49,343 nucleotides of DNA, from positions 1 through 49,343 of the forward strand of contig PXSQ01000030.1 in NCBI GenBank assembly GCA_003022725.1, in the 5' to 3' direction. Shown here one piece after another: positions 3,211-29,283 of this stretch. Each line of letters starts with the position of its first letter. The stretch's first letter is position 1. The notes beneath the pieces were generated by a model. It saw nothing but the letters and a program-made list of their open reading frames with translations, was not told the origin of the DNA and did not search any database. Both the position numbers and the translations under genes were made by a program. The DNA comes from Halobacteriales archaeon SW_7_65_23. Lineage in GTDB: Archaea > Halobacteriota > Halobacteria > Halobacteriales > Haloarculaceae.

Positions 3211-3694
3211 CAGCGCCCAGCGAGACGCGGTGGACGTGACCCTGGCGGGTGGCGCCTCCAATGAATCGGTGACACTGGAGTGGGCGACTGTCGACGGCGA
3301 CACGGGCACGGGTAATGTGACTGTCGCCAGCGAGAACGACACGGACACGGAGCCGGTGACAGTGCAGGAACCGGCGTCGTTCGCGGTGAACGTCACGGAC
3401 ACGACCTCGCCGGTGGCTGAGGGTGAGACGCTGACTGTCACAGCCAACGTGACCAACGTGGGCGACGTCCAGGCCACCCAGACCGTGACGCTGGAGGACA
3501 CTGGATTCGACAGCCTCGAACGTGACGCGGTGGACGTGACGCTGGCGGCTGGCGCCTCCAACGAGTCGGTCGAACTCGAATGGGCGACTGCCGATGGCGA
3601 TGCGGGCACGGGCGACGTGACCGTCGCCAGTGAGAACGACACTGCGACCGAGTCATCACGAACACAGGTGACGTGCAGGAGACCCAGACGGTGA
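3104..3694 (+). CDS. CARDB-like repeat fragment of the giant protein
   Basis: VEGETLEVTANVTNTGDVQDTQTVTLNDTGF... in frame 2, between two frame-breaking junctions. Confidence 0.7.
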   Translation: MSGRVEGETLEVTANVTNTGDVQDTQTVTLNDTGFDSAQRDAVDVTLAGGASNESVTLEWATVDGDTGTGNVTVASENDTDTEPVTVQEPASFAVNVTDTTSPVAEGETLTVTANVTNVGDVQATQTVTLEDTGFDSLERDAVDVTLAAGASNESVELEWATADGDAGTGDVTVASENDTATESSRTQVTCRRPRR

Positions 3695-6600: not shown

Positions 6601-9600
6601 AGGACGGTCGTCGAGTACGTCTTCGCCGGCGACGTCATCAGTGAACTGACGCAGTCGGTCACGCTCTTTGGTGGCGCGACGGAGACCGTCACCTTCGAGG
6701 TGCCGATCAGCGAGGACGTCCCGCCGGGCACCTACGAGCACGGTGTTCAGGCTGGCGACGGCTCGCAGTTCGCGGAGATCACGATCGAGGAGCAGCCCCC
6801 GCCGACCGCCGAGAACGACAGCTACACTGTCCCGGAGGACGCGACGCTGTCGGTGTCGACGGAAAACGGCACGCTAGCCAACGACACCGATCCCGACGGC
6901 GACGCGCTGTCGGCGACGCTGGTTTCGGACGTCTCGAACGGCTCGCTGACGCTGTACGCTAATGGAAGCTTCGAGTACGTTCCAGACCCCGATTTCAACG
7001 GTGAGAACAGCTTCACCTACGAGGCGAGCGACGGGTCGGGCGACACGGATACAGCGAGTGTCACGATCACGGTGTCGGCGGTCAACGACGCCCCGGAGAT
7101 CACGTCCGGGCCCGCGAACGCCACTATAGACGAGGAGAACGCGACGGTACTGTCAGTGGCCGCGAACGACGCCGACGGGGACGCACTCTCCTACGACTGG
7201 AATCTGAGCGGGATCGGAAGCCTGAACGCGACGTCCGGGGCCTCGGTCAGATACGACGCCCCCGACGAACTGGCTTCGGAAGATACCGCGACGATAACGG
7301 TCACTGTCAACGACAGTACCACCGAGATCACGGCGACGGCCACGATTACCGTGCGTCCAGTCAACGACGCCCCGGAGATCACGTCGCCACCGATGAACGC
7401 GACGGTCGATGAGGAGAACAGTACCGTTCTCTCGGTGACTGCGACCGACAACGACACTACCGATACGCTCTCCTACAACTGGACCCTGACCGGCAACGGC
7501 AGCCTAAATACGACGACCAGCACGTCCATCAGATACGACGCCCCCGAGGAACTCACCTCGAACGGGACCGCGACAGTGACGGTCTCGGTCAACGACAGCG
7601 AGGCGAACGCGACCGCCACGGCCACGATCACGATTGTAGCGGTCAACGGCGCGCCAACCGCAGCCAACGACAGCTACACCGTCGACGAGGATGGGACGCT
7701 ATCCGTGTCGGCAGCGAACGGTACGCTTGCCAACGATACCGACCCAGAGGGCGGCTCGCTGTCGGCGTCGGTCGTCTCCTGGCCCTCTAACGGCAGCCTG
7801 ACGCTTTTCGCAAACGGCTCCTTCGAGTACACGCCCGATACTGACTTCAACGGCCAGGATAGCTTCACCTACGAGGCGAGCGACGGGTCGGGCGGCACGG
7901 ATACAGCGAGTGTCACGATCACGGTGTCGGCGGTCAACGACGCCCCGGAGATCACGTCCGGGCCCGCGAACGCCACCCTCGATGAGGAGAACAGTACCGT
8001 TCTCTCGGTGACGGCGACCGACAACGACACTACCGATACGCTCTCCTACAACTGGACCCTGACCGGCAACGGCAGCCTAAATACGACGACCAGCACCACC
8101 GAGGTCACAGCGACGGCCACGGTCACGGTCAATCCAGTCAACGACGCCCCCAAGATCACGTCCTCGCCTGCGAGTGCTACCGTCGACGAGGAGAACAGTA
8201 CCGTTCTCTCGGTGACGGCGACCGACAACGACACTACCGATACGCTCTCCTACAACTGGACGCTGACCGGCAACGGCAGTTTGAACGCCTCCTCGGGAAC
8301 AGCCGTCAGATACGACGCCCCCGACGAACTTGCCTCGCAGGAGGACGTGACGCTGACCGTCACTGTCAATGACAGCATCACAGAAGTCACGGCGACGGCG
8401 ACGGTCACGGTCAATCCAGTCAACAACGCTCCCGAGATCACGTCGGCACCCGCGAACGCCACCGTCGATGAGGGTAACGAGACCGTGCTGTCGGTGGAGG
8501 CGACCGACAACGACGGTGACGCGCTCTCCTACAACTGGACACTGACCGGTAATGGAGGGCTCAATGACACCTCCGGAACCGCCGTGCGGTACGACGCCCC
8601 CGACGAACTCGCCTCGCGGGAGAACGTGGCGGTTACCGTCACGGTCGACGACGGAACCGCGAACGTGTCGGCCAACGCTACCGTGACGGTCAATCCGGTC
8701 AACGACGCTCCCGAGATCACGTCCGGGCCAGCGAACGCCACCGTCGACAAGGGGAACACGACGGTGCTGTCGGTGACTGCGGCCGACAACGACACCACAG
8801 ATACGCTCTCCTACACTTGGACGCTGACCGGCAACGGCAGTCTGAACGCCACATCCGGGACGTCGGTCAGATACGACGCTCCGGACGAACTCGCGGCCAA
8901 CCGGACTGCGACCGTGCGAGTCAACGTGAGCGACGGGACGACGAACGCGACCGCAACGGCAACGATCACCATCGTCGCGGTCAACGATGCGCCGACCACA
9001 GCCAACGACAGCTACAGCGTTGACGAGGACGCGACCCTGTCGGTGTCGGCGGAAAACGGCACGCTGGCGAACGACACCGACCCCGACGGCGATATCCTGA
9101 ACGCCTCGGTTGTGCGTGGTCCGTCGAATGGGAGCTTGACGCTTTTCACCAACGGATCCTTCAAGTACGTGCCCGACCGCGATTTCAACGGGGAGGACAG
9201 CTTCACCTACGAGGCCAGCGACAGAGCGGGCGGGACCGACACGGCGATGGTCACGATCACGGTTTCCGCAGTGAACGACGCCCCCGAAATCACGTCGGCG
9301 CCCGCGAACGCCACGGTTGAGGAGAAGAACTCCACCGTCCTGTCGGTGGAGGCGACGGACGCCGACGGCGACACGCTCTCTTACACTTGGACGCTGGCAG
9401 GGAACGGCAGTCTGAACGCGACATCAGGCACGTCGATCAGATACGACGCCCCCGAGGAACTCGCCGCGAACGAAACCGCGACGGTGACTGTCTCGGTCAA
9501 CGATAGCACGGCGAGCGCGACCGCGACGGTGACGATCACGGTCGTCGCGGTCAACGACGCGCTGACCGCAGCCAACGACAGCTACACCGTCCCGGAAGAC

Positions 9601-11676
9601 GGGACACTGTCTGTATCAGCGGCGAACGGCACGCTCGCCAACGATACCGATCCCGACGGCGATGTGCTGAACGCCTCGGTCGTGAGCGGTCCGTCGAACG
9701 GGAGTCTCACGCTGTACGCCAACGGCTCCTTCGAGTACACGCCGGCTCCCGACTTCAACGGCGAGGACAGCTTCACCTACCAGGCAAGCGATGGAGCGGG
9801 CGGGACCGATACAGCGACGGTGACCATCAACGTTTCCGGAGTCAACGACCCACCCGAGATCACGTCCGAGCCCGCGGACGCGACCGTCGACGAAGGGAAC
9901 GCAACAGTGCTGTCGGTGGACGCGACGGACGCCGACGGAGACGTGCTGTCGTATGCCTGGAATCTCTCGGGGACCGGCAGCCTGAACGAGACGTCGGGGA
10001 CGGCAGTCAGATACGACGCTCCCAATGATATCGACGCAACGACCGACGTGACCGTGACGGTCACGGTGGACGACGGGAAGGAAACCGACTCGGCGACGGC
10101 AATCGTGACGGTCGAACCGGTCAACGAGCCGCCGACCGCCGAGAACGACAGTTACAGTGTGGACGAAGGCACGACTCTGGCGGTGTCGGCGGCGAACGGG
10201 ACGCTGGCTAATGACGCCGATCCGGACGGAGATTCCCTATCGGCGTCGGTCGTCTCCGGGCCGTCGAACGGCACGCTCACTCTCCACGCCAACGGCTCAT
10301 TCGCGTACGCGCCCGATTCGGGCTTCACCGGGACCGATTCGTTCACCTACGAAGCGAGTGACGGCAATGGTGACAGTGATACGGCGACAGTGACAATCAC
10401 TGTAACCGGATCGCAACCCACGCCAGCGAACTTCACGGTCGTGATTACAGACACGAACGCGCCGGTCGTCGAAGGGGAGACACTGACAGTCACTGCGAAC
10501 ATCACCAACACGGGCGATGTCAAAGCCACACAGACGGTGACACTGACCGATAGCGGCTTCGACGGTATCGAGCGGGACGGGATAGACGTGACGCTGGCTG
10601 GCGGCGAGTCCAACGCGTCGGTGGTTCTGGAGTGGACCACCACCGAGGGCGATGCCGGGACTGGTGATCTGACCGTCGCTACCCAAAACGATTCGACGAC
10701 TGAAGCGGTGACCATCGAGCCAGCCGACACCAACGCTCCTCCGACAGCGACTGATGATAGCTATACTGCCACCGAAGGCGAGACGCTCACGGTGAGTGTA
10801 CCAGGCGTCCTCGACAACGACACCGACCCCGATGGTGACGATCTCACCGTTTCGACGCCCGCAGAAACCGACACCGAAAACGGAACGCTCACACTGAACG
10901 CCGACGGGAGCTTCGAGTACACGCCCGATGACGGCTTCACTGGCACCGACTCATTCACCTACGAGGTGACCGACGGCAGTGGTGGGTCAGACACGGCGAC
11001 AGTAACGATCAACGTCACAGCGACTGCGACCCCGCAGTTCGCGGTCAGCATCACGAATACGAACGCACCGGTGACCGAAGGCGATACCCTCACAACGAGC
11101 GTCACCGTCAACAACGTCGGGGGTGCCGCTGGAACGCAGACGATCACGCTCGAAGCGTTCGATAGCTCCCAGGTCGACAGCCAGTCCGTCTCGCTGAACC
11201 CGGACGAAACAGCAACGATCACGCTTGAGTGGGCGACCCAAGTCGGAGACGCAGGTAGCGGCGATCTCACCGTCGCAAGCGAGAACGACACGGCGACACG
11301 GAGTGCAACAGTCAACGCTGCCGACACGAACGACCCGCCGGTCGCCAGCGACGATAGCTATACCACGCCCGAAAACGAGACACTGGCAGTCTCCGTGCCG
11401 GGTGTCCTCGAAAACGATACCGACCCGGACGGTGACAGCCTCACTGTGACGGTCCTCAACGCACCGTCGAACGGCGGACTCGACCTAAGAGCTGACGGCT
11501 CATTTGAGTACACGCCCGACGCAGGGTTCACCGGCCTCAGCACTCTCTGGACTCTCAATCGCCGGTCAGGGAATGTCGGCGACGATCACCGAAGGCGACG
11601 ACGAGAACGTCGCAGTCACCGTCGAAAACACGGGCGAGCAATCCGGGGCGTTCACGGTCACGCTCAATATCGGTAA
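3673..11676 (+). CDS. Central fragment: CARDB-like, tandem-95/cadherin-like and PKD-like repeats
   Basis: Continuous repeat protein; homology ends at ~11531 (...DAGFTGLSTLWTLNRRSG). Confidence 0.8.
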   Translation: MQETQTVTLEDTGFGGAEQDAVEVTLAGGESNESVVLEWTTADGDAGTGDVTVASENDTATEPVTVEEPASFDVAITDTNEPVIQGETLSVTANVTNTGDAQATQTITLEDTGFSGTEQDAVDVTLAGGASNASVTLEWATSSGDAGSGDVTAASENDTDSTLVTVQDPASFAVEIVDTTSPVVEGETLSVTANVTNTGDVQETQTVTLNDTGFGGAEQDAVDVTLAGGASNASVVLEWTTADGDAGTGDVTVASDNDTESRSVTVEEARANFSVSIDNTSAPVVEGDTLSVNATVKNVGDATGARDVNLTDFDGAEVDTQSVSLAAEEKTTVTLNWSTSTGDAGSDNVTVASDNDSASRNVTVNAPAFFAVTIDSANASVTEGEDVVVDYTVENTGGVSDTQDIIFRVNGTQNDTESGVTLNAGGTFSDSFVYPTGDSDVPAITVNVSSDDDGAERTVTVNGVLTAQNDSYTVDEDGSLSVSESNGTLDNDTDPDGDSLSASLDSDVSNGTLTLHDNGSFEYVPDSDFNGEDSFTYKADDGAGGTDTATVTITVNAINDAPTANDLSVTTDEDTAVSGTFDASDPDDSSLSYSIASAPSNGTVSVSGDGFTYTPDSDYAGSDSFTYEVSDDDGATDMATVTITVNAINDAPIAANDSYTVDEDGTLSVSEANGTLANDTDPDSGALSATLASDVSNGSLTLYANGSLTYTPDDGFTGTDSFTYEITDGNGGSDTATVTFNVTATATSQLDQDEYVLESDSGQTITGTSTKAAGSEVTVRIESEDLNNPFVDRQTVSVESDGTFSAEFDVSSLPEGTNLTVQLFNSNGNEIDTATARIAQPASFEVSNLDAPSTAVIGDTVTVTADVTNTGDVEGTTDVEYVFAGDVISELTQSVTLSGGATETVTFEILIIEDIPPGTYEHGVRAGDGSRFAEITILEEQPASFEVSNLDAPSTAGFGDTVTVTADVTNTGDIQGRTVVEYVFAGDVISELTQSVTLFGGATETVTFEVPISEDVPPGTYEHGVQAGDGSQFAEITIEEQPPPTAENDSYTVPEDATLSVSTENGTLANDTDPDGDALSATLVSDVSNGSLTLYANGSFEYVPDPDFNGENSFTYEASDGSGDTDTASVTITVSAVNDAPEITSGPANATIDEENATVLSVAANDADGDALSYDWNLSGIGSLNATSGASVRYDAPDELASEDTATITVTVNDSTTEITATATITVRPVNDAPEITSPPMNATVDEENSTVLSVTATDNDTTDTLSYNWTLTGNGSLNTTTSTSIRYDAPEELTSNGTATVTVSVNDSEANATATATITIVAVNGAPTAANDSYTVDEDGTLSVSAANGTLANDTDPEGGSLSASVVSWPSNGSLTLFANGSFEYTPDTDFNGQDSFTYEASDGSGGTDTASVTITVSAVNDAPEITSGPANATLDEENSTVLSVTATDNDTTDTLSYNWTLTGNGSLNTTTSTTEVTATATVTVNPVNDAPKITSSPASATVDEENSTVLSVTATDNDTTDTLSYNWTLTGNGSLNASSGTAVRYDAPDELASQEDVTLTVTVNDSITEVTATATVTVNPVNNAPEITSAPANATVDEGNETVLSVEATDNDGDALSYNWTLTGNGGLNDTSGTAVRYDAPDELASRENVAVTVTVDDGTANVSANATVTVNPVNDAPEITSGPANATVDKGNTTVLSVTAADNDTTDTLSYTWTLTGNGSLNATSGTSVRYDAPDELAANRTATVRVNVSDGTTNATATATITIVAVNDAPTTANDSYSVDEDATLSVSAENGTLANDTDPDGDILNASVVRGPSNGSLTLFTNGSFKYVPDRDFNGEDSFTYEASDRAGGTDTAMVTITVSAVNDAPEITSAPANATVEEKNSTVLSVEATDADGDTLSYTWTLAGNGSLNATSGTSIRYDAPEELAANETATVTVSVNDSTASATATVTITVVAVNDALTAANDSYTVPEDGTLSVSAANGTLANDTDPDGDVLNASVVSGPSNGSLTLYANGSFEYTPAPDFNGEDSFTYQASDGAGGTDTATVTINVSGVNDPPEITSEPADATVDEGNATVLSVDATDADGDVLSYAWNLSGTGSLNETSGTAVRYDAPNDIDATTDVTVTVTVDDGKETDSATAIVTVEPVNEPPTAENDSYSVDEGTTLAVSAANGTLANDADPDGDSLSASVVSGPSNGTLTLHANGSFAYAPDSGFTGTDSFTYEASDGNGDSDTATVTITVTGSQPTPANFTVVITDTNAPVVEGETLTVTANITNTGDVKATQTVTLTDSGFDGIERDGIDVTLAGGESNASVVLEWTTTEGDAGTGDLTVATQNDSTTEAVTIEPADTNAPPTATDDSYTATEGETLTVSVPGVLDNDTDPDGDDLTVSTPAETDTENGTLTLNADGSFEYTPDDGFTGTDSFTYEVTDGSGGSDTATVTINVTATATPQFAVSITNTNAPVTEGDTLTTSVTVNNVGGAAGTQTITLEAFDSSQVDSQSVSLNPDETATITLEWATQVGDAGSGDLTVASENDTATRSATVNAADTNDPPVASDDSYTTPENETLAVSVPGVLENDTDPDGDSLTVTVLNAPSNGGLDLRADGSFEYTPDAGFTGLSTLWTLNRRSGNVGDDHRRRRRERRSHRRKHGRAIRGVHGHAQYR
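6190..6797 (+). repeat. 303-bp (101-aa) tandem duplication inside the giant gene
   Basis: CAGCCGGCGAGCTTCGAGGTCTCCAACCTCGACGCCCCGTCGACCGCG begins at 6190 and again at 6493; the units are nearly identical. Confidence 0.85.
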
Positions 11677-18198: not shown

Positions 18199-19275
18199 TC
18201 AGATTTCCGGGTACGGGACCGGACCGGCGTCGAACACACCGGCCGCGACGAGCACCGCCAGCAGGAGGCTCGTCAGGACGATCGAGACAGCGGGCGGGTC
18301 GATGTGGGTGTCGCCGTGGGCGTACAGCGTCCGCTGTGCAAGTTCGCCGGCAAGTGCCCCGATTGCGCCGAAGGCGCCGGCAACCAGGAGTGCGCCGACA
18401 GCGGAGTCCGCGTCCACGAAGAACGCAAGCGCAGCGATGCTCGCGGGCAGTGCCATGTGGTGTGTGACCGGGAGGTCGTACAGTCCGAGTGCGAGAAACA
18501 GGAGGCTGGCGGCGGTGATCCCGAACGCGAGGAAGACGCTGCCGGTAACCAGCGTGACGTACCCCGAGGCGACGCCGACGCCGCCGCCGAGGACAGCCAG
18601 CCGGACCCAGTCAGAGTGCTCGGGGAGCCACGGTTCGACGACCTGGCGGCCGCCAGTCCCCTGCGCGGTTTCGTGATCAGGCTCGCCCCACCGCTCGTTG
18701 CGGTCTGCCGGCGACATATCGAGCACCGAGGTCTGGAGTTCGCGCACCCGGCCGATCAGCGGATAGCCGAACGCAAGCCGGTGGGCGAACCCCGAGAGGA
18801 CGATCGCCAACATCACTGGGTCCACCGGAATCCCGGCGTCAGCGACGATACGTGCGACCAGGACACCGAAGAGGCCGAACGCGCCGCCGACCAGCAGGAC
18901 GTCGGGGCTGCTCCCCAGCGGCTTCGTGATCTTCTTTGCCTGGTGGTACCGGAACCCGGTGTCGATCGTCTCGCGGCGGCCGAGGTACGCTGCGGCCGCG
19001 ACCCCGCCGGCGAACGCGACGTGTGGGCCCAGCACGGGGCCGAAGCCGACGCTTCCCGCGACGCCGGTGGCCTCGAGCGGCGCCGGATCGACTCCGAACA
19101 CCTCGCCTACTGGGCCGTCGCCGGGTGACCCTACTCCCCCCAGATTTGTGACTTCCCCGACAGTGATGACGATGCCTGCGAGACTGAGCGCCGGCAGTGC
19201 GCCGACCGCGGCGCCGATCATACCACCTGCGACGCCGGCGATCACCACCTCGATCGTGAGCTGTGCGGTGACCAT
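18199..19275 (-). CDS. Haloarchaeal multi-pass membrane protein of unknown function
   Basis: Multiple hydrophobic segments; no family recognised with confidence. Confidence 0.8.
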   Translation of the reverse strand: MVTAQLTIEVVIAGVAGGMIGAAVGALPALSLAGIVITVGEVTNLGGVGSPGDGPVGEVFGVDPAPLEATGVAGSVGFGPVLGPHVAFAGGVAAAAYLGRRETIDTGFRYHQAKKITKPLGSSPDVLLVGGAFGLFGVLVARIVADAGIPVDPVMLAIVLSGFAHRLAFGYPLIGRVRELQTSVLDMSPADRNERWGEPDHETAQGTGGRQVVEPWLPEHSDWVRLAVLGGGVGVASGYVTLVTGSVFLAFGITAASLLFLALGLYDLPVTHHMALPASIAALAFFVDADSAVGALLVAGAFGAIGALAGELAQRTLYAHGDTHIDPPAVSIVLTSLLLAVLVAAGVFDAGPVPYPEI

Positions 19276-19634: not shown

Positions 19635-19716
19635 ATAGTGATTATTGTGACTGTTTACCGGGTCGACCGCACGCAGTCGCGCGGTCGATCCCGGAACGAC
19701 TCACAATAATCACTAT
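19635..19716. repeat. 82-bp near-palindrome with perfect 16-bp terminal arms
   Basis: ATAGTGATTATTGTGA...TCACAATAATCACTAT; inner arms ACCGGGTCGACCGC / GCGGTCGATCCCGG also nearly complementary. Confidence 0.85.
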
Positions 19717-19732
19717 GAGATGACACTCGGAA

Positions 19733-19750
19733 TTTTTAGGCAGGCTTAAA
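19733..19750. promoter_or_regulatory. Degenerate DtxR/Idr-type box
   Basis: TTTTTAGGCAGGCTTAAA, imperfect palindrome similar to the three stronger boxes. Confidence 0.45.
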
Positions 19751-19828
19751 TAAGTGTACCGACGAGTGATTGATAGCCAGTCCGGAGCCGGTTTTCCTGC
19801 TCGCTGTGCCGTTGAGAGACCGACAGCC

Positions 19829-19849
19829 TTTTTTAGGCCGACCTAAAAA
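19829..19849. promoter_or_regulatory. DtxR/Idr-type iron-responsive operator
   Basis: TTTTTTAGGCCGACCTAAAAA palindrome ending 9 nt before the ATG at 19859. Confidence 0.75.
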
Positions 19850-19858
19850 CCTGAGTCG

Positions 19859-21016
19859 ATGAGCCAGGACATCTGCGTGGTCGTCCCGACCATCAGGGAG
19901 TACGACTGTGTGCGGGCGTACGTGGAAAACGCCCGCGAGCACGGGTTCGACGTTTCCCGCCTGTACTTCCTGCTGGTCACGGAGGACTTCTGCGAGACGG
20001 ACGCGATGCGGTCGATGCTTGCGGAGGAAGGCGTCGCCGGCGAGGTGTACGACGGCACCCGGCGGGTGGAGTGGTACGACAAACAGGACATTCCGGAGTA
20101 CGGGCACGTGGTGCCAGCTGGGAGTCACGCGGAAACGAGCTTCGGCCTGCTGTACATGTGGGCGAACCCGCAGTTCGAGTACGGCGTGTTCATCGACGAC
20201 GACACGCTGCCCCACGAGGGGACGGACTTCTTCGGGACTCACCTCGCGAACCTCGGGTTCGAGGGGCGGATCCGCAGCGTCGCCTCGGACGAGCAGTGGG
20301 TCAACGTTCTCTACCAGGGCGCGGACGACCACGGCCTCTACCCGCGGGGGTACCCCTACTCCGCGATGGACGAAACAGTCGAGACGGACACTGCCGAGGT
20401 TGACGGCGGCGAGATCGTCGCCTCACAGGGGCTGTGGACGAATGTGCCGGATCTGGACGCCGTCCGAATCCTGATGGATGGCGACCTCCAGGGGCAAGCC
20501 CAGACGCGCACCACTGCGGCGGATTTCGGGGAGGACTTCGTCGCGGCACGTGGCAACTACCTCACCGTCTGTTCGATGAACCTCGCCTTCCGGCGGGAAG
20601 TGATCCCGGCGTTCTATCAGCTTCCGATGGACGACAACGAGTGGGACGTGGGGCGGTTCGACGACATCTGGAGCGGCGTGTTCCTCAAGCGCGCGTGCGA
20701 CGTTCTCGGAAAGCGCATCTACAACGGCCAGCCGCTCTGTGAGCACAACAAGGCGCCCCGCTCGACGTTCGACGACCTCCACAACGAGGTGGCGGGGCTG
20801 GAGCTGAACGAACACGTCTGGCGGCTGATCGACGACGCCGGCGCCGGCGCTGGCGACTACGTCGGGGTCTACCGGGCGATGGCCGACGCGCTTCTCGGGG
20901 CGGACGCGGAGGCGTACCGCAACGGGGAGTTCTTCCACTTCGTCGGCGAGCACATGCACGACTGGCTGGACGCGCTCGCGGCGCTCGAGCGGGTGCCGGC
21001 GGCAGCGGACGACTGA
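19859..21016 (+). CDS. RGP family (alpha-1,4-glucan-protein synthase / UDP-arabinopyranose mutase-like) glycosyltransferase
   Basis: CVVVPTIREYDCVRAYVENA...YGVFIDDDTLPHEGTDFFGTH...YPRGYPYS. Confidence 0.85.
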   Translation: MSQDICVVVPTIREYDCVRAYVENAREHGFDVSRLYFLLVTEDFCETDAMRSMLAEEGVAGEVYDGTRRVEWYDKQDIPEYGHVVPAGSHAETSFGLLYMWANPQFEYGVFIDDDTLPHEGTDFFGTHLANLGFEGRIRSVASDEQWVNVLYQGADDHGLYPRGYPYSAMDETVETDTAEVDGGEIVASQGLWTNVPDLDAVRILMDGDLQGQAQTRTTAADFGEDFVAARGNYLTVCSMNLAFRREVIPAFYQLPMDDNEWDVGRFDDIWSGVFLKRACDVLGKRIYNGQPLCEHNKAPRSTFDDLHNEVAGLELNEHVWRLIDDAGAGAGDYVGVYRAMADALLGADAEAYRNGEFFHFVGEHMHDWLDALAALERVPAAADD

Positions 21017-21042
21017 ACCGATACCACTCAGGAGCGACAGTC

Positions 21043-22260
21043 ATGACAGATCTACCACAGACGGCACAGACCGGCGACGAGGGACAGCGCGACGGACAGA
21101 GCGGTACCGCGACCGACCGGGAGAGACAGACGAACCGACGGCGGTTCCTCGCGGGCGCCGTCGCAGCTGGCACGGCGAGCATTGCGGGCTGTGCTGGGCT
21201 GTCTAGCGACGAGAACGGCGACGGCGAGGACACCCAGTGGGAGCTCTCGGATTTCCGCGGGTCGGGACCGCTGGTGGCCGACCGCGCCGCTCCGGGCGGG
21301 ACCTCGATCTCGGACCTCCCACCCCTCGAGGGCGAACTCAGCTTCTATCTGGGCGGCGGCGAGGGCGGCCTGTACCTCGAACTCATCGAACGGTTCGAGG
21401 AGATCTACGGGGACTTCACGTTCGACCACACGATCGACAGCTCCAGCCAGCTGTCGAACCGGATCACCGAGGAGGTCGAGGCCGGCGCGAGCCAGGCCGA
21501 CCTCTTCCTGGCAGTCGACGCCGGCTCGCTCGGCAACGTGGCCGAAAACGACGCTGCACAGTCGCTTTCGGACGAGGTGGTCGGCGACGTGCCCGAACAG
21601 CTCCGCGCTGATACCTGGGTCGGCTTCGCCGGTCGCGCCCGTGCTGTGCCCTTCAACACGGAGCAGCTCAACCGGTCAGACGTGCCCGACACGGTCCAGG
21701 AGTTCCCCGATACCGAGGCGTTCCAGGACAGCATCGGCTGGGCCCCAACCTACGGCGCGTTCCAGTCGTTCGTCACCGCGATGCGGTTGCTCCGCGGCGA
21801 GGACGAGACGCGGGCGTGGCTCACCGACATGCAGGACGCCGGCGTCGAGGCGTTCCCCGACGAGTTCCGCGTCTCCAACGAGGTGGCAAACGGCGCGCTG
21901 GCCGGCGGCCTGGCGAACCACTACTACGCGCTCCGGGTCCGGAACGCCCGCGGGAACGCCCCCGTCGACCTCGCGTTCACCAGCGGCGACGCGGGCGCAC
22001 TGATCAACGTCTCCGGCGCACAGCTCATCGAGGGCGCAAGCGACGTCGAGCTGGCGGAGACGTTCATCCGTCACCTCCTCTCGGCGGAGGCCCAGGAGTT
22101 TTTCGCCACACGAACGTTCGCATACCCGACCGTCCCCGGCGTCGAGCCCGTGGCTGATCTCCCCTCGATCGAGGAGCTGAACCCTCCGGACGTGGACCTG
22201 ACCGAGCTCGCTGACACCGGACCGACGCTCGACCTCCTCGACGAAACCGGAATCCTCTAA
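21043..22260 (+). CDS. Fbp-type (iron) ABC transporter substrate-binding protein, Tat lipoprotein
   Basis: NRRRFLAGAVAAGTASIAGC Tat/lipobox; LSFYLGGGEGGLYLELIERFEEIYGDFTFDHTIDSSSQLSNRI...; GAQLIEGA..VELAETFIRHLLSAEAQEFF. Confidence 0.85.
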   Translation: MTDLPQTAQTGDEGQRDGQSGTATDRERQTNRRRFLAGAVAAGTASIAGCAGLSSDENGDGEDTQWELSDFRGSGPLVADRAAPGGTSISDLPPLEGELSFYLGGGEGGLYLELIERFEEIYGDFTFDHTIDSSSQLSNRITEEVEAGASQADLFLAVDAGSLGNVAENDAAQSLSDEVVGDVPEQLRADTWVGFAGRARAVPFNTEQLNRSDVPDTVQEFPDTEAFQDSIGWAPTYGAFQSFVTAMRLLRGEDETRAWLTDMQDAGVEAFPDEFRVSNEVANGALAGGLANHYYALRVRNARGNAPVDLAFTSGDAGALINVSGAQLIEGASDVELAETFIRHLLSAEAQEFFATRTFAYPTVPGVEPVADLPSIEELNPPDVDLTELADTGPTLDLLDETGIL

Positions 22261-22267
22261 CTCGCCG

Positions 22268-23938
22268 GTGCCGAAGCTCCGACGAACCGGCATGGACGGG
22301 AACACAGACGAAGACACTCGCGGCGCCGGGAGGCGACTGCTCCCCGAGGCGATCCGCCGCGGACTCGGGGACGCGAGAGGGTCGATGCTGGGTCTCCTGA
22401 CTGTGCTGATCGCGCTGGTACTTTTGACGCCGTTCGCGTGGCTCGTCCTCGAAGCCAGGGGCGTCGGCCGCGATCGCGCCGTCTCGATGGTGTTCAGCGC
22501 CGACACGGCGGAGATTGTTGTCAACTCGCTTTTACTTACGGTCGGCGTGACGGGCTGCTCGATCCTGGTCGGCGTCCCGCTGGCGATTCTGACCGCCCGG
22601 ACGGACCTGCCGTTCCGGCGGTTCTGGACCGTCATGGCCGCCCTACCGCTGGTGATTCCCAGCTACATCGGCGCCTTCGCGTTCGTCTCGGCGTTCGGCC
22701 CGCGCGGCGTGTTGCAGGACGCCCTCGCCCCGCTGGGAGTCGAGGAACTCCCGGCGATCTACGGGCTGTTCGGGACGACGTTGGTCCTGACGCTTTACAC
22801 CTACCCCTACGTCTACCTGACTACCCGGGCGTCGCTTCTGTCGTTCGATGGAACCGTCATCGAGGCGGCGCGGACGCTGAACCAGACCCGCTGGGAGGCG
22901 TTCCGGCGGGTGACGCTGCCACAGATCAAACCCGGCGTCGCGGCCGGGTCGCTTTTGATCGCGCTGTACACGCTGTCGGATTTCGGGACCCCACAGATCA
23001 TGCGCTACGACGTGTTCACGCGGATGATCTACGTCTGGTACGACAACAACTTCCTCGGGCGAGCAGCGCTGCTCTCGCTGTTGTTGCTGGCGATGACGGT
23101 CGTGATCCTGGCGCTTGAGTCACGCATCGGCGCCAGCGACGAGGGCGATCACGTCTCCAGCGGTGACCGGCCGCCGGGACAGATCAAACTGGGGCGGTGG
23201 CGGTGGCCGGCACTTTGCTTCTGTGTGTCGGTTGCCGGCCTCGCGCTGGCAGTCCCGCTGGGCATCCTCGCGATGTGGCTCCGACGACCCTCGCCCGGCT
23301 ACGCCGAGGGCGGGTTCGCCTTCGAGCCCGGGTACGCGGTCAACTCGGTGAGCCTCTCGCTGGCCGCGGCGATTCTCGCCGTGACTGTCGGGTTGCCGCT
23401 GGCGTACCGCTCCGCACGGAGCACGTCGCGGCTCGGATCACTGCCCGAACGCGCGAGCTACATCGGCTACGCCACGCCCGGGGTCGTCGTCGGCCTGGCA
23501 CTGATCTTTTTCGGCCTCCGGTTTGCGAGCGTCCTCTACGGGACGGTGGTCCTCCTAGTGTTCGCCTACGTGGTCCGGTTCGTCCCGCAGGCTGTCGGGA
23601 CGATGAAGTCCTCGATTCTGCAGGTCGACCCGAAACACGTCGAGGCGGCGCGGCTGATGGGTGACGGCCCGGTCCGGTCGTTCCGGCGGGTGGTATTGCC
23701 ACAGATCGCGCCGGGGGGCGTCGCCGGCGCCGCGCTGGTGTTTCTCACGACGATGAAGGAACTGCCAGCGACGCTTTTGTTGCAGCCGCTGGGCGAGGAG
23801 ACGATCGTCACCTACATCTGGCAGATGCAGGAGGCCGCCTACTACGGCCGGGCAGCGGTCCCGGCGCTGGTTCTGGTCTGTGTCTCGGCGTTCTCGATGC
23901 TCATCATCCTCCGACAGGACGGGTACGATGGCACGTGA
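22268..23938 (+). CDS. Iron ABC transporter permease (FbpB-type, duplicated permease domain)
   Basis: Two EAA-type loops (EAARTLNQTRWEAFRRVTLPQIKPG and EAARLMGDGPVRSFRRVVLPQIAPG) and ~12 TM segments. Confidence 0.93.
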   Translation: MPKLRRTGMDGNTDEDTRGAGRRLLPEAIRRGLGDARGSMLGLLTVLIALVLLTPFAWLVLEARGVGRDRAVSMVFSADTAEIVVNSLLLTVGVTGCSILVGVPLAILTARTDLPFRRFWTVMAALPLVIPSYIGAFAFVSAFGPRGVLQDALAPLGVEELPAIYGLFGTTLVLTLYTYPYVYLTTRASLLSFDGTVIEAARTLNQTRWEAFRRVTLPQIKPGVAAGSLLIALYTLSDFGTPQIMRYDVFTRMIYVWYDNNFLGRAALLSLLLLAMTVVILALESRIGASDEGDHVSSGDRPPGQIKLGRWRWPALCFCVSVAGLALAVPLGILAMWLRRPSPGYAEGGFAFEPGYAVNSVSLSLAAAILAVTVGLPLAYRSARSTSRLGSLPERASYIGYATPGVVVGLALIFFGLRFASVLYGTVVLLVFAYVVRFVPQAVGTMKSSILQVDPKHVEAARLMGDGPVRSFRRVVLPQIAPGGVAGAALVFLTTMKELPATLLLQPLGEETIVTYIWQMQEAAYYGRAAVPALVLVCVSAFSMLIILRQDGYDGT

Positions 23939-24094
23939 GATGGGCTCCCGTGGGACTGTTCGAGCTCGGACCGCGAGACAGGCCTGTCAGCTCCGGGAGG
24001 GACTGATTCGTCGATATCCGGCGGTGCAGCCCCACAGCAGTCCGGCCGAGGATACCCCGCAGACGGCGCCACTCAGATCGCCTTCCCCTGAACG

Positions 24095-26152
24095 ATGAGG
24101 ACCGGTCAATCAACAGCCAGGCACGCCGGCGAACGCCTCGCGGAGGCGCGCCGATACCTGCGCGAGCGCTGGCAGATTGCGCTGGTAGCCCTGGCCGCGG
24201 GCCTGGTCGTCTTTCTCGTCGGCGAGCAGGTGTTTCCGTACCACACGTTGAACCACGACGAGGGGGTCTACCTCCAGCAGGCTGAGCTGCTGTTGGAGGG
24301 CCGGCTGTTCCTGGAGCCGCCGGTTGCCGAGTCGTTCCGGCCCTGGTTTTTCGTCGCCGACGACGGCGGGCTCTACCCGAAGTACACGCCCGTGACGGCG
24401 ACGTTCTTCGCGCTGGGCGGGCTGGTTGGGTCGTATCGGCTGGCAGTGGCCGCCATCGCGGCGGTGGCCGTGGTGCTCACCGCCGCTATCGTGACCGAAC
24501 TGTTCGACCGTCGGATCGGGTTGCTCGCGGCTGCGATCCTCGCAGTCTCCCCACTGTTTATCGTTCAGGCGGTCGTCTTTCTCCCGTACGTCCCGGCGTT
24601 CACACTGAATCTGCTGTTCGCCTGGGCGTACCTCCGCGCGGACAGAACTGACAGCGTTCGCTTCGCCGCCCTCGCTGGCGGTGCGATCGGGTTGTCGTTC
24701 TGGGCCCGGCCCTACACTGCGGTGTTGTTCGCGACGCCGTTCGTCTGTCACGCACTCTGGCGGCTGCGCTCGGTCGAACGGGCCGTACTGCTCCGACAGG
24801 GGATCACCGCCGCGCTCGGCCTGGTGGGGGTAGCGGTGGCGCTTACCTACAACGCGATCGTCACTGGCGACCCGCTGTTGTTTCCCTACGAGGCGTTCGC
24901 CCCGCTGGACGGGCTCGGCTTCGGTCACCGGGAGATCGTCGGCTACGAGCGCGAGTACACCCCCTCGCTCGCGCTGGAGGCAAACGCCCGCAACCTCTGG
25001 CAGTTCGCCACCGCGTGGGGGCCGGCGGGCTGGCTCGGCACACTCGTCGCCGTGGTGGGGCTGGCGACCGTTGCCCGCCGTTCAGAGTGGCGGGATTCGC
25101 GCGTGCTCGCGGTGCTTGCCCTGCTGGTGACGATCGCCGTGGGGAACCTCTACTTCTGGGGGACGCTGAACGTGCTGGGTGACCTCTCGGATCCGAACGA
25201 CGGGCTGATCGCTACGCTCGGCCCGTACTATCACGTCGGCCTCCTGCTGCCGACAGTGACGCTGGCTGCGGTCGGCCTCCGACGGATTGTCGATGGTGTG
25301 CGGGCAGCACGCGCCCGGATAGACGACCGCCGAGTCGCCCACTCCTTGGTCGCGGTGGCGCTCGTGCTGGCTGTGGTCGCGAGCGGTGTCGCCGCGGTCG
25401 CGCTCGCACAACCGCTTTCGGACAACTACGAGACGACCCGTCAGTACGAACGGGCATACGAACCGTTCGATGACAGGGAGTTCGAGAACGGGCTGGTGTT
25501 CTTGCCGACGCCGTACGGCGACTGGCTCAACCATCCGTTCCAGGTCCTGCGCAACGACCCTTCCTTCGACGGCGCGGCGGTGTACGCACTCCAGCACCGG
25601 GAGTTCGCCGTCGTCGACGCCTTTGCGGACCGCCAGCTATACCGGTACAGCTACCGCGGCCCGTGGCTGCCGTTCGCCGGGCAGTCAGTGACGCCGCGGC
25701 TTCGCGAGATCGAGCACGTAGCGGGTGAACGCGTCCGTCTCGATCTCTCCCTCGGCCTCCCGGATGCGGTCGAGACGGTCGACGTCAGCACGAGCGCCGG
25801 GACCGGTGCGAACGGCACCTCGGCTGCGGTCGGCTCCGAACTGAACGTGACGGTGGTCGCCGAGAACGGGACGGTAACGGCACGCTCGGAAGCGTTCGCG
25901 GAGCCCATCACGGTCGCCCACGACGGCGAGTCGCCCGTAGAACTGGTCGCGTTCGTCGATTACGGGGCCCTGGGCGGGTTCGACTACGTCGTCAGGCTGC
26001 CGCTGGTGTCCGAAGAGGGAGGGTACCGGGCGATGACACCGTATCTGGAGGTGTGTGATTCACCCGGGCTCTGTGGGGGCGAGGCCGCATACGTGCCTGG
26101 CGAACACCGCAGCGGCGTGGCGATGAACGCGACACTGTCGGCCTCCGATTAG
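24095..26152 (+). CDS. GT39/PMT-like membrane glycosyltransferase
   Basis: LNHDEGVYLQQAELLLEGRLFLEPP...YTPVTATFFALGG...SFWARPYTAVLF, multi-TM. Confidence 0.8.
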   Translation: MRTGQSTARHAGERLAEARRYLRERWQIALVALAAGLVVFLVGEQVFPYHTLNHDEGVYLQQAELLLEGRLFLEPPVAESFRPWFFVADDGGLYPKYTPVTATFFALGGLVGSYRLAVAAIAAVAVVLTAAIVTELFDRRIGLLAAAILAVSPLFIVQAVVFLPYVPAFTLNLLFAWAYLRADRTDSVRFAALAGGAIGLSFWARPYTAVLFATPFVCHALWRLRSVERAVLLRQGITAALGLVGVAVALTYNAIVTGDPLLFPYEAFAPLDGLGFGHREIVGYEREYTPSLALEANARNLWQFATAWGPAGWLGTLVAVVGLATVARRSEWRDSRVLAVLALLVTIAVGNLYFWGTLNVLGDLSDPNDGLIATLGPYYHVGLLLPTVTLAAVGLRRIVDGVRAARARIDDRRVAHSLVAVALVLAVVASGVAAVALAQPLSDNYETTRQYERAYEPFDDREFENGLVFLPTPYGDWLNHPFQVLRNDPSFDGAAVYALQHREFAVVDAFADRQLYRYSYRGPWLPFAGQSVTPRLREIEHVAGERVRLDLSLGLPDAVETVDVSTSAGTGANGTSAAVGSELNVTVVAENGTVTARSEAFAEPITVAHDGESPVELVAFVDYGALGGFDYVVRLPLVSEEGGYRAMTPYLEVCDSPGLCGGEAAYVPGEHRSGVAMNATLSASD

Positions 26153-26922
26153 CGGAACCGCTCGTCGAGTGCGACCCTCAGGATCGACTTCGCGATGGCG
26201 TCCCCCCCCTCGATGGGATCGAGCTTCGACTCTCCGGCGCGCTCCCGGTAGTCGATCGGATGCTCGCGGACGTCGTACCCCCACATTAGCGGCCTGATGA
26301 GTAACTCCGCAGAGAGCCCGGTGTTCTCCGTCCACTCGATGGATTCGACGACCTCGCGTCGGTATGCGCGCATCCCCGTGGTCGTGTCGTGGACGCGAGT
26401 GCCCATCAGCACGCTCGCCGCGAGGGCGAACAGGTGGTTCCCCAGGCGGTTGAGCGCCGGCATCGCCTCGGCGCCGTGGTACAGCCGGTCCCCGCTCACC
26501 ACGTCGTACCCCTCGTTGATCAGGGCCAAAAACTCCGGCAACTGTTCCATCGGGTAGGTGTCGTCGCAGTCCGTGGTCACAACGACCGGCCGGTCAGGCG
26601 CGAGGATCGCTTCCCTGACTGCCACGCCGTACCCCTGGGGTTCCTGATCGATCACCCGGGCACCGTGCTCGCGGGCGATCTCCGGCGTCCGGTCGGAGGA
26701 ACCGTCGACGCAGACGACCTCCGCGTTCCCGTCGGTCACCGCTTCGATGTCCCTCAGGACGGTCCCGATGGCCTCCTCCTCGTTGTAGGTCCCCATCACC
26801 ACACTGACGTCCGCGAACGTGTACTCGTTGCCCGACTGCTCGCCACCGCCCGGGTCAGTTTCCCCGCTGTCGGCCCCGTCACTGACCGGAATATCGCCGG
26901 CTGTACTGGCTGTGTCGCTCAT
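26149..26922 (-). CDS. GT2 family glycosyltransferase (dolichyl-phosphate hexose synthase-like)
   Basis: VSVVMGTYNEEEAIGTVLRDIEAV...TTDCDDTYPMEQLPE...TGMRAYRREVVESI. Confidence 0.9.
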   Translation of the reverse strand: MSDTASTAGDIPVSDGADSGETDPGGGEQSGNEYTFADVSVVMGTYNEEEAIGTVLRDIEAVTDGNAEVVCVDGSSDRTPEIAREHGARVIDQEPQGYGVAVREAILAPDRPVVVTTDCDDTYPMEQLPEFLALINEGYDVVSGDRLYHGAEAMPALNRLGNHLFALAASVLMGTRVHDTTTGMRAYRREVVESIEWTENTGLSAELLIRPLMWGYDVREHPIDYRERAGESKLDPIEGGDAIAKSILRVALDERFR

Positions 26923-26953
26923 TACTCCGGGTTCCGTGGCCGCGACGCTTAAG

Positions 26954-26972
26954 TTTTTAGGTTTGCCTAAAA
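26954..26972. promoter_or_regulatory. DtxR/Idr-type iron-responsive operator
   Basis: TTTTTAGGTTTGCCTAAAA palindrome upstream of the minus-strand GT2 gene. Confidence 0.75.
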
Positions 26973-26982
26973 TACTGGCGGG

Positions 26983-28596
26983 CTACCGGAGTGCAGCGTC
27001 GACGGCGTCGGCCACACGCAGCGCGAGCGCCGCGATAGTGAGCGTCGGGTTCATCGCCCCGCCGGTCGGGAAGACGCTGCTGGACGCGATCCAGCAGTTC
27101 TCGAGGTCGTGGGTCCGGCAGGCGGGATCGACGACGCTGTCGGCGGGATCGGTGCCCATCCGCGTCGTTCCCATGTGGTGGTACGCCGGCCCCGTCTCGT
27201 CGGGGCCGACAGTCCAGGTGACCTCCGCGCCGAGTTCTTCCAGGATCGACCGCTGAATCTCGTTGGCCCGTTCGATCGTCCGCAGCGCGCGGTCGCCGAC
27301 GTGCCAGTGGACATCCGGCACCCGGTTGCCGCGGTCGTCGGTCCGCTCGGGAGCCAGTCCGACGTAGCTGTCCTCGCGGGGCAACTGCTCGACGAGGGCA
27401 CCGACGGCGACGTGGTTGCCGTACTCCGACCGGAGCCGCTCGAGCAGGTCGTCACCCCAGTCCTCGCCCGTCAGCGCCAGTTCGACCGGCGACGGCCCGG
27501 CGTAGTTGAAAAACTCCAGCTTGAACGGCCCGATATCCTCGCCGGCATCGTCGTAGAACTGGTGGGACTCGCTGGTCAGAAAGCCGACGTGGTTCTGGCG
27601 GGTCGGTTCGTCGAGTATCCCGCCGACGCCGGCGAACAGGTGGTCCATGAAGTACTTGCCGACCAGCCCGCTTTCGTTCGCCAGCCCGTCGGGGAACTGA
27701 TCGGAGTCGGACATGAACAGGAGTCGTGGTATCTCTACACCGCCGCAGGCGAGCACGAACGCGTCGGCCTCCTGGCGGTGCCTGGCGCCGTCCGGTGTGG
27801 TGTACGTTGCCGCCCGGATGCTGTCCGCATCGTGGGCCAGCTGTTCGACCCGCGCCCTGTCGATGACAGTCGCGCCCTGCTCCGCGGCGGATTCGACGTG
27901 GACGGTGGCGTCGTACTTCGCGCCCGACGGGCAGACGGGCTGGCAGGTCCCGTAGCCGACGCACTCGCTCCGGCCGTCGTAGGGCTCGGAGTTGCGCGCG
28001 TTCGGGACCGAGTGCATCGCGATGCCGAGTTCGTTGCAGGCCTCGGCGAACAGCGAGTCGCTGTATGACGGCCGAAATGCGGGCATCGGGTGGGGCTGCT
28101 CCCGCGGCGGTGCGAACGGGTTGTCGGCCCCGCCTGCCACGCCGAGTTCGCGCTCGGCCGCAACGTAGTAAGGGGGAAGGTCGGCGTAGTCGATCGGCCA
28201 ATCGGGACCGACGCCGCGCTCGGTGCCCGAGTTGAAATCGGCCTCGTGGAGTCGCATCACCATCCCCTGCCAGTGAAGCGTCGATCCGCCGATTCCCTTG
28301 ACTCGGGCGTGATTGAGGGGGTAGAACCACTCGCCGCTTGCGGCGTGGGCGTCGCGCTCACCACCCATTTCCCAGACGTCAGGCCGATCGTACGCCGGTC
28401 TGATTGCCCGCTCCTGGCGTTCCAGACGATCCGCCTCGTCGAACCGTGGCCCCGCCTCCAGCACCACGACCTCGTGTTCATCCGCGAGGCTGTCGGCGAC
28501 CAGCCCGCCTGCGGGCCCGGCCCCGATCACGCACACGTCGGCGTTGGGCACCGGTGACCGGTCACGCTCCTGTCCCCGGTTTGCGCTCTCCGTCAT
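26983..28596 (-). CDS. GMC family oxidoreductase
   Basis: DVCVIGAGPAGGLVADSLADEHEVVVLEAG; ARVKGIGGSTLHWQG; C-terminal GPAYHHMGTTRMGTDP...SSVFPTGGAMNPTLTIAALALRVAD; start ATG overlaps upstream stop. Confidence 0.93.
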   Translation of the reverse strand: MTESANRGQERDRSPVPNADVCVIGAGPAGGLVADSLADEHEVVVLEAGPRFDEADRLERQERAIRPAYDRPDVWEMGGERDAHAASGEWFYPLNHARVKGIGGSTLHWQGMVMRLHEADFNSGTERGVGPDWPIDYADLPPYYVAAERELGVAGGADNPFAPPREQPHPMPAFRPSYSDSLFAEACNELGIAMHSVPNARNSEPYDGRSECVGYGTCQPVCPSGAKYDATVHVESAAEQGATVIDRARVEQLAHDADSIRAATYTTPDGARHRQEADAFVLACGGVEIPRLLFMSDSDQFPDGLANESGLVGKYFMDHLFAGVGGILDEPTRQNHVGFLTSESHQFYDDAGEDIGPFKLEFFNYAGPSPVELALTGEDWGDDLLERLRSEYGNHVAVGALVEQLPREDSYVGLAPERTDDRGNRVPDVHWHVGDRALRTIERANEIQRSILEELGAEVTWTVGPDETGPAYHHMGTTRMGTDPADSVVDPACRTHDLENCWIASSSVFPTGGAMNPTLTIAALALRVADAVDAALR

Positions 28597-29132
28597 TGTG
28601 GCCCTCGCTGATACGTGTCGGTCCCCCCTGGGTGTCCCTGCGGGTTCTCGATCCCCACCAGTTCGCCGCCAGTCGGCGACGCGTACAGCGCCAGCAGGAG
28701 GTCGTTGACGAGGTAGTACCTGACGCGCTCGGCCACGGTCCCCTCGGGGTCCTCCTCGGCGGTATCCGTCCCCAGTTCCCGTAGCACCCGATCCCGCGTG
28801 TTGTCGTCCAGATTGACGTACTGCTCGCCGTGCCACTGCTGTGCGTGATCGTCCACCGTCGCGACTGCCTCACGAACGCCGTCACTGTGACCCTCCCGCG
28901 ACAGGCGCGCACTCAGAAACTCCGAGACGAACTCATCGACGCCCGTCACTGCCGAGGGGTACAGCACTTCCGCCACGGCGACCGCGACGGCTTCGACGTG
29001 GGCGTCGTCGGGGAGCTCGGCTTCGGGCGGGCCCTCGGACCCGGAGTCGCCGACCTGTGAGATGCCGACGGCTCCGGCGCCGATTCCCAGGGCGGCCAGC
29101 GCCGCGACCGCGTCCCGCCTCGACAGCTCCAT
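28593..29132 (-). CDS. Gluconate 2-dehydrogenase subunit 3 family protein
   Basis: MELSRRDAVAALAALGIGAGAVG twin-arginine-like N-terminus; VAEVLYPSAVTGVDEFV...GHPGGTDTYQRGPQ; overlaps the GMC gene (ATGA). Confidence 0.85.
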   Translation of the reverse strand: MELSRRDAVAALAALGIGAGAVGISQVGDSGSEGPPEAELPDDAHVEAVAVAVAEVLYPSAVTGVDEFVSEFLSARLSREGHSDGVREAVATVDDHAQQWHGEQYVNLDDNTRDRVLRELGTDTAEEDPEGTVAERVRYYLVNDLLLALYASPTGGELVGIENPQGHPGGTDTYQRGPQ

Positions 29133-29143
29133 TGTCGGCCGAG

Positions 29144-29159
29144 TTAGGCAAACCTAAAA
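29144..29159. promoter_or_regulatory. DtxR/Idr-type iron-responsive operator
   Basis: TTAGGCAAACCTAAAA, reverse complement TTTTAGGTTTGCCTAA identical to the core of the 26954 box; 11 nt upstream of the minus-strand start at 29132. Confidence 0.75.
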
Positions 29160-29283
29160 CTTATATCCGTCGGAGCGAGCCCGACCAGGTATGGAGAGTG
29201 GCGGAGGCGAGTCCAGGATCGCCGGCTACAGAGGCTGCTTCCGGATGAAAGATACTTACCCCGGGCTTGCCTATATATGATCG

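Follow-up and report, generated by a model that had tools for sequence, protein, structure and literature searches.

What brings genes for glycan synthesis, for iron uptake and for an oxidoreductase behind copies of one palindrome? The question is raised by a 49,343 bp stretch of Halobacteriales archaeon SW_7_65_23 (contig PXSQ01000030.1, positions 1 to 49,343; hereafter the window), which is contig C30 of an assembly of 2.63 Mb that is 79% complete. The window's nearest relatives are the Halovenus-like metagenome-assembled genomes (MAGs) SW_10_66_29 and QS_4_66_20. Our analysis of the island between 19.7 and 29.2 kb points to what is likely to be an iron-starvation regulon controlled by a DtxR-family repressor, in which ferric uptake is joined to a surface glycosylation resembling that of AglD/AglR/AglS and to an exported dehydrogenase.

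A conserved palindrome at the island promoters

The island holds three exact copies of the 14 bp palindrome TTAGGNNNNCCTAA and a fourth copy with a single mismatch (Table 1). A first-pass annotation of this DNA had described three strong palindromes within about 35 bp of start codons and a weaker fourth, and had placed them at the head of a unit composed of the RGP-family protein (RGP), an iron-binding lipoprotein (SBP) and a permease, of a GT2 glycosyltransferase gene (DPH) and of the GDH3-GMC oxidoreductase unit. All four were located as described, the exact copies lying 11–34 bp from the ATGs and the core of the weaker one at 19736–19749, and the gene assignments hold on Pfam and family profiles, with the correction that the likeliest start of the GMC gene is 28596 rather than the first GTG of a longer open reading frame (ORF). 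Under a first-order Markov model built on the window, the window should contain 0.0017 exact boxes and the 2.63 Mb assembly 0.09; six are observed in the whole assembly, three of them in the island and the remaining three in front of a DUF5059-halocyanin gene (two in tandem) and of a DUF7260 gene. A pattern with a five-base gap, TTAGGNNNNNCCTAA, has zero exact sites, the true gap being of four bases, and sigma-70 promoter predictions have no meaning in archaea.

Conservation of the box was addressed in loci gathered around 60 same-family RGP homologues and around 20 GMC homologues of other families, together with 80 loci with organism names, by searching the 200 bp in front of each gene. Among the 134 non-redundant loci, an exact box was found upstream of RGP in 126 of 133 loci, upstream of SBP in 92 of 129 and upstream of the permease in 51 of 102, while for DPH the count was 71 of 107 (101 if one mismatch is allowed) and for GDH3 70 of 99 (75 with one mismatch). 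Two operon-internal genes served as controls: no box was present upstream of the glycosyltransferase gene GT39 in any of 132 loci, and GMC had one in a single locus out of 73. Shuffled upstream regions contained zero exact boxes. Conserved boxes were seen in Haloarcula, Natronomonas, Halovenus, Natrinema, Halorubrum, Halorussus and others, and GMC genes situated outside the island have a box of their own 10–11 bp upstream (loci L112, L122, L128, and L138). Conservation upstream of orthologues in relatives had been set beforehand as the check on the proposal, and it is what the counts for RGP, SBP, DPH and GDH3, set against those for GT39 and GMC, display.

Table 1. Boxes and genes of the island, with window coordinates.
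Feature	Coordinates	Strand	Support or position
One-mismatch box TTAGGCAGGCTTAA	19736..19749	+	No gene headed in own genome
Exact box TTAGGCCGACCTAA	19833..19846	+	12 bp to RGP ATG 19859; overlaps likely TATA region of RGP operon
GT75 (RGP) family protein, predicted NDP-pyranose/furanose mutase	19859..21016	+	PF03214; MtdL structures 7yua/7xpr, E 3e-24
FbpA-type ferric-iron-binding lipoprotein (SBP)	21043..22260	+	7w3w, E 6e-41; other FbpA chains
FbpB-type two-domain iron ABC permease	22268..23938	+	9j4r (iron ABC transporter permease), E 8.5e-79; two BPD_transp_1 stretches
GT-C membrane glycosyltransferase (GT39; PMT_2 + DUF7846)	24095..26152	+	Pfam; AlphaFold model pTM 0.77
Dolichyl-phosphate hexose transferase (DPH, GT2)	26149..26922	-	NF041391 equivalog, 407 bits (cut-off 375); dolichol monophosphate mannose synthase 5mlz, E 2e-11
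Exact box	26957..26970	-	34 bp to DPH ATG 26922 (-)
GMC dehydrogenase, FAD-glucose/fructose dehydrogenase type, predicted 3Fe-4S cluster	26983..28596	-	6a2u, E 2e-85
Gluconate_2-dh3 (GDH3) small subunit, twin-arginine-type signal SRRDAV	28593..29132	-	PF13618; N-terminus read directly
Exact box	29144..29157	-	11 bp to GDH3 ATG 29132 (-); between TATAAG (29160-29165) and GDH3 start

The metal and its regulator

The genes beside other exact sites were read in seven complete relatives. In these genomes the box heads 11 genes for siderophore-type binding proteins, a FecCD permease gene, IucA/IucC together with a diaminobutyrate aminotransferase, the genes for FeoA, FeoB and SufC, and two genes of the DtxR family, where the FeoB, SufC and aminotransferase labels were given by eye from sequence or from general Pfam matches; some exact sites adjoin no obvious iron gene. 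As FeoA/FeoB, siderophore and DtxR genes carry the same box elsewhere, we consider it to be an iron box, and the presence of two DtxR-family genes behind it suggests autoregulation. The genome of the window itself encodes a DtxR-family protein (L106, ORF 1246-1677, minus strand) with both the DNA-binding and the metal-binding domain (Fe_dep_repress and Fe_dep_repr_C). The single metal-responsive regulon proposed in the first-pass annotation is supported by these data, and its metal is iron judging from the classical iron genes and the DtxR gene that accompany the box in relatives; that an iron-responsive repressor of the DtxR type controls all three units as one regulon is predicted with high confidence. 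Like the haloarchaeal DtxR-family (Idr, SirR, TroR) iron regulons, the system combines a palindromic operator at siderophore, Fbp/Fec and Feo promoters with a DtxR gene behind the box, and it would differ from them by the inclusion of a dolichol-phosphate glycan pathway and of the GDH3-GMC dehydrogenase.

Two simpler accounts of the boxes were weighed. Shared promoter composition near haloarchaeal TATA boxes could yield AT-rich palindromes, but the tiny number expected in the window, the empty shuffles and the recurrence of the box at the same genes across Halobacteria lead us to reject a chance or generic promoter origin as next to impossible. A response to manganese through an MntR-like member of the DtxR family would agree with the use of Mn2+ by GT75 mutases (PMC9937993) and with the best DtxR-family protein of this genome, to which the MntR models give a slightly better score than the DtxR models, both scores being far below cut-offs; the companions of the box in relatives are, however, siderophore synthesis and uptake, FeoA/FeoB and SufC, and we regard manganese in place of iron as very improbable.

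Several box-headed genes outside the island deserve mention. The DUF5059-halocyanin gene behind two tandem exact boxes (L011 3083-4709, contig C3 of the same genome) may encode an electron carrier of the iron response and belongs to a family that is also box-headed in genomes G013 and G074, and the DUF7260 gene (L012 4622-5457, contig C57) has its exact box 36 bp upstream of the start. One 15 kb stretch of G096 holds four genes for siderophore-type binding proteins, every one of them behind a separate iron box, and G013 carries a siderophore synthesis cluster with six boxes (loci L146 and L116).

Importer, glycan genes and dehydrogenase

The uptake system had been annotated as Fbp-type, and SBP and the permease were indeed matched to FbpA- and FbpB-type proteins. 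The Tyr294-Tyr295 pair of SBP is kept in 129 of 130 sequences, the remaining one having an alignment gap at this position. The best ATPase homologue (61% identity) is encoded on contig C103 at 22133 (L014 2471-3749), where a box with one mismatch, TTTGGCCTCCCTAA, lies 77 bp upstream of the start codon, and this orphan FbpC-like ATPase probably completes the importer as its third component. An FbpC-like ATPase lies within the same operon in Haloarcula and other genera. The system is similar to FbpABC/HitABC importers in the Tyr-Tyr pair, in the fused two-domain permease and, in Haloarcula and others, in the operon position of the ATPase, and it is unlike them in that the candidate ATPase of this genome is on another contig and that glycan genes are found in the operons of SBP and permease. 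Import of ferric iron by SBP and permease is a prediction that we hold to be highly probable.

The glycan genes comprise a predicted mutase and two predicted transferases. RGP is nearest to MtdL, a GT75 NDP-pyranose mutase (PMC9937993), and in their alignment MtdL residues Asp109-111, Arg159, Arg257, Asp260 and His287 correspond to RGP residues Asp113-115, Arg163, Arg266, Asp269 and His296, which are invariant in 135 sequences; the DDD motif, the glycosylated Arg, the catalytic Asp and the Mn-ligand His, i.e., every GT75 catalytic residue checked, are all present. RGP agrees in this with the GT75 mutases MtdL and plant UAM/RGP (PMC9937993), all checked catalytic residues including the glycosylated arginine being kept, and departs from MtdL in the replacement, throughout the RGP set, of Arg289 by Lys and of His292 by Arg (MtdL numbering). 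The predicted product of RGP, and hence the sugar of the pathway, is somewhat more probably a furanose than not. The GT39/GT2 pair of the first-pass annotation was recovered by profile as a GT-C protein (PMT_2/DUF7846) and a GT2 dolichyl-phosphate hexose transferase. Searching PDB sequences with a profile of the GT-C protein returned nothing useful, and the protein was therefore folded with AlphaFold and the model compared; its fold matches OST, ALG12, ArnT and the arabinofuranosyltransferase AftD with E values of 1e-5 to 5e-3.

In many relatives a flippase-like gene (PF03706, LPG_synthase_TM) lies upstream of RGP and has its own box, often of the form TTAGGTGGGCTTAAATAT, which heads this gene in Halovenus and Natrinema. 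The gene is missing upstream of RGP here and in the two closest MAGs; a homologue elsewhere has 48% identity. Since the weak box of the window at 19736, TTAGGCAGGCTTAAAT, has the same form as TTAGGTGGGCTTAAATAT while the gene itself is missing, this box is probably a promoter remnant left by a flippase-like gene that has been lost. That the relatives' gene might instead be the missing ATPase is ruled out by its Pfam match to LPG_synthase_TM.

The closest functional parallel for these genes is the AglD-AglR-AglS route, by which the terminal mannose is attached in Haloferax volcanii (PMC3871713). The parts that would correspond are a dolichyl-phosphate sugar synthase, a flippase-like protein (in relatives) and a putative outward-facing transferase, the likeness being one of working parts and not of orthology; the island differs in the addition of a GT75 mutase, in control by the iron box and in the loss of the flippase-like gene from the window. 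Transfer of a dolichol-phosphate-linked glycan to the outside of the cell is predicted, and we consider it likely. A separate hint comes from published work on Hfx. volcanii, where an RGP-family protein is present (a control of the homologue search): HVO_1859, type member of flippase-like PF03706 with a predicted role in glycosylation (PMC5898192), is up 11.6-fold in iron starvation (PMC11349517).

The three cysteines Cys212, Cys218 and Cys222 of the GMC protein line up with those that bind the 3Fe-4S cluster in the Burkholderia glucose dehydrogenase (6a2u), and they are invariant in 83 sequences. His473 and Asn516 are kept in 82 sequences. No credible PDB match was found for GDH3 by sequence, and because GDH3 begins with a twin-arginine-type signal the GDH3-GMC pair would be exported. 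The pair shares with the Burkholderia FAD-glucose dehydrogenase and with fructose dehydrogenase the GMC and GDH3 subunits, the Cys-x5-Cys-x3-Cys ligand pattern and the catalytic His and Asn, and differs from them in its iron-box control and in the lack of a cytochrome c subunit among the island genes, so that it would work like the two-subunit core only.

Co-inheritance and the reach of the regulon

Coupling of the glycan genes to one another and to GMC was addressed by their distribution. Of 101 near-complete genomes of the family, the same 98 contain RGP, GT39 and DPH; the near-complete genomes were relied on because a single missing contig can cause joint absence in draft MAGs. Across 300 genomes of Halobacteria, RGP is found in 238 and GMC in 235: both are present in 233, RGP alone in five, GMC alone in two and neither in 60 (293 of 300 agree; Fisher p 2e-54, uncorrected for relatedness). 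Joint absence was found in some members of the genera g13, g15, g30, g37, g44, and g46, other members of which have both genes, and the pattern is therefore not the result of one ancestral event. GMC does not lie beside RGP in many of these genomes, which favours a shared function over mere shared position.

Some observations weigh against this picture. The four sampled genomes of genus g4 (L069, L074, L078, and L081) carry RGP, GT39 and DPH side by side, without boxes, importer or GDH3 at the four loci, and GMC is missing from the g4 genomes searched; the glycan module can therefore do without iron control, which was either gained or lost. In the window there is no flippase gene, and neither the island nor the rest of the window holds an ATPase gene. 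TM-scores for the folds matched by the GT-C model are modest (0.35-0.44), and HVO_1859 may not be an orthologue of the flippase-like gene of the island. The g4 loci form, in their own right, a natural experiment which separates glycan and iron functions.

The boxless g4 loci, and the fact that GT39 is never itself headed by a box, would fit an iron homeostasis confined to importer and GMC unit, with the glycan genes carried along by historical linkage. DPH, however, forms a transcription unit of its own and has a box even where unlinked (L136), RGP is the first gene behind a box with SBP often behind a second one, and GMC and RGP are inherited together even if unlinked; we consider this explanation unlikely. 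A different role for the dehydrogenase would be to pass electrons outward and reduce Fe(III), the freed iron then being handled by the glycan or the importer. An FAD dehydrogenase with an Fe-S cluster is of a type that reduces one-electron acceptors, the DUF5059-halocyanin protein is in the same regulon here and in relatives, and FeoA/FeoB share the regulon in some relatives, but the adjoining importer is of the Fe(III)-binding FbpA type, the island has no cytochrome or ferric-reductase gene, and GMC is largely missing where RGP is missing, which reductive uptake alone leaves unexplained. Such reductive mobilisation is a minority possibility, comparable to the similarly tentative proposal that GMC acts on the surface glycan.

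The reading that we prefer remains joint control of importer, glycan pathway and dehydrogenase by iron, and it may be set out as follows. With enough Fe2+ a dimer of the DtxR-family repressor would sit on the 14 bp palindrome, overlapping or abutting the TATA/start region, and block three transcripts, which would be made together when iron is short. The first unit would provide the Fbp-type ferric importer, with lipoprotein and permease from the island and the ATPase from elsewhere in the genome. The GT75 mutase would make an NDP-furanose, the GT2 enzyme would load the sugar onto dolichyl phosphate, the flippase-like protein (next door in many relatives, lost here) would turn the dolichyl-phosphate sugar outwards and the GT-C transferase would pass it to a surface acceptor. 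Outside the membrane the Tat-exported GDH3-GMC, with FAD and 3Fe-4S cluster, would oxidise a sugar, perhaps that just placed on the surface or one whose electrons help to mobilise iron. As the same box fronts the importer, the lipid-linked sugar pathway and the exported dehydrogenase, iron hunger probably remodels the cell surface, besides raising iron uptake, in most of the Halobacteria examined. More speculative, and in our judgement doubtful, is a dedicated surface-remodelling system of iron starvation in which a furanose delivered by dolichyl phosphate is then oxidised by the exported 3Fe-4S dehydrogenase, the modified glycan helping to capture or reduce iron near the importer.

Regulons of this type are known; the arm made up of glycan genes and dehydrogenase appears to be undescribed in the literature searched, which did not cover the main haloarchaeal DtxR regulon studies, and the search found no paper on archaeal RGP, on the dolichyl-phosphate hexose transferase or on a haloarchaeal GMC. 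Surface glycans of Haloferax change with salinity, and the effect of other environmental factors has been posed as a question (PMC3871713). With an iron box conserved on an entire dolichol-phosphate glycan pathway, iron becomes a testable factor of this kind in culturable genera such as Haloarcula, Natrinema and Halorubrum. The analysis further places a dehydrogenase present in 60 of the 77 genera sampled in a regulatory context and predicts a source of NDP-furanose in archaea.

Upstream of the island a 14 bp inverted repeat, AGTGATTATTGTGA...TCACAATAATCACT, bounds an element resembling a miniature inverted-repeat transposable element (MITE) at 19637-19714. The repeat has 58 matches per strand genome-wide (at most one mismatch) and occurs in two sizes, with arms about 64 or 93 bp apart; none is present at the corresponding site in L169 and L170. 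Adjoining the island is a 358-aa ORF (18199-19275, minus strand) with no Pfam match, homologues of which (77%) were found, among the loci compared, only in those of the two closest MAGs. Further upstream the window contains an unusually long open frame of 2667 aa (3673-11676, plus strand).

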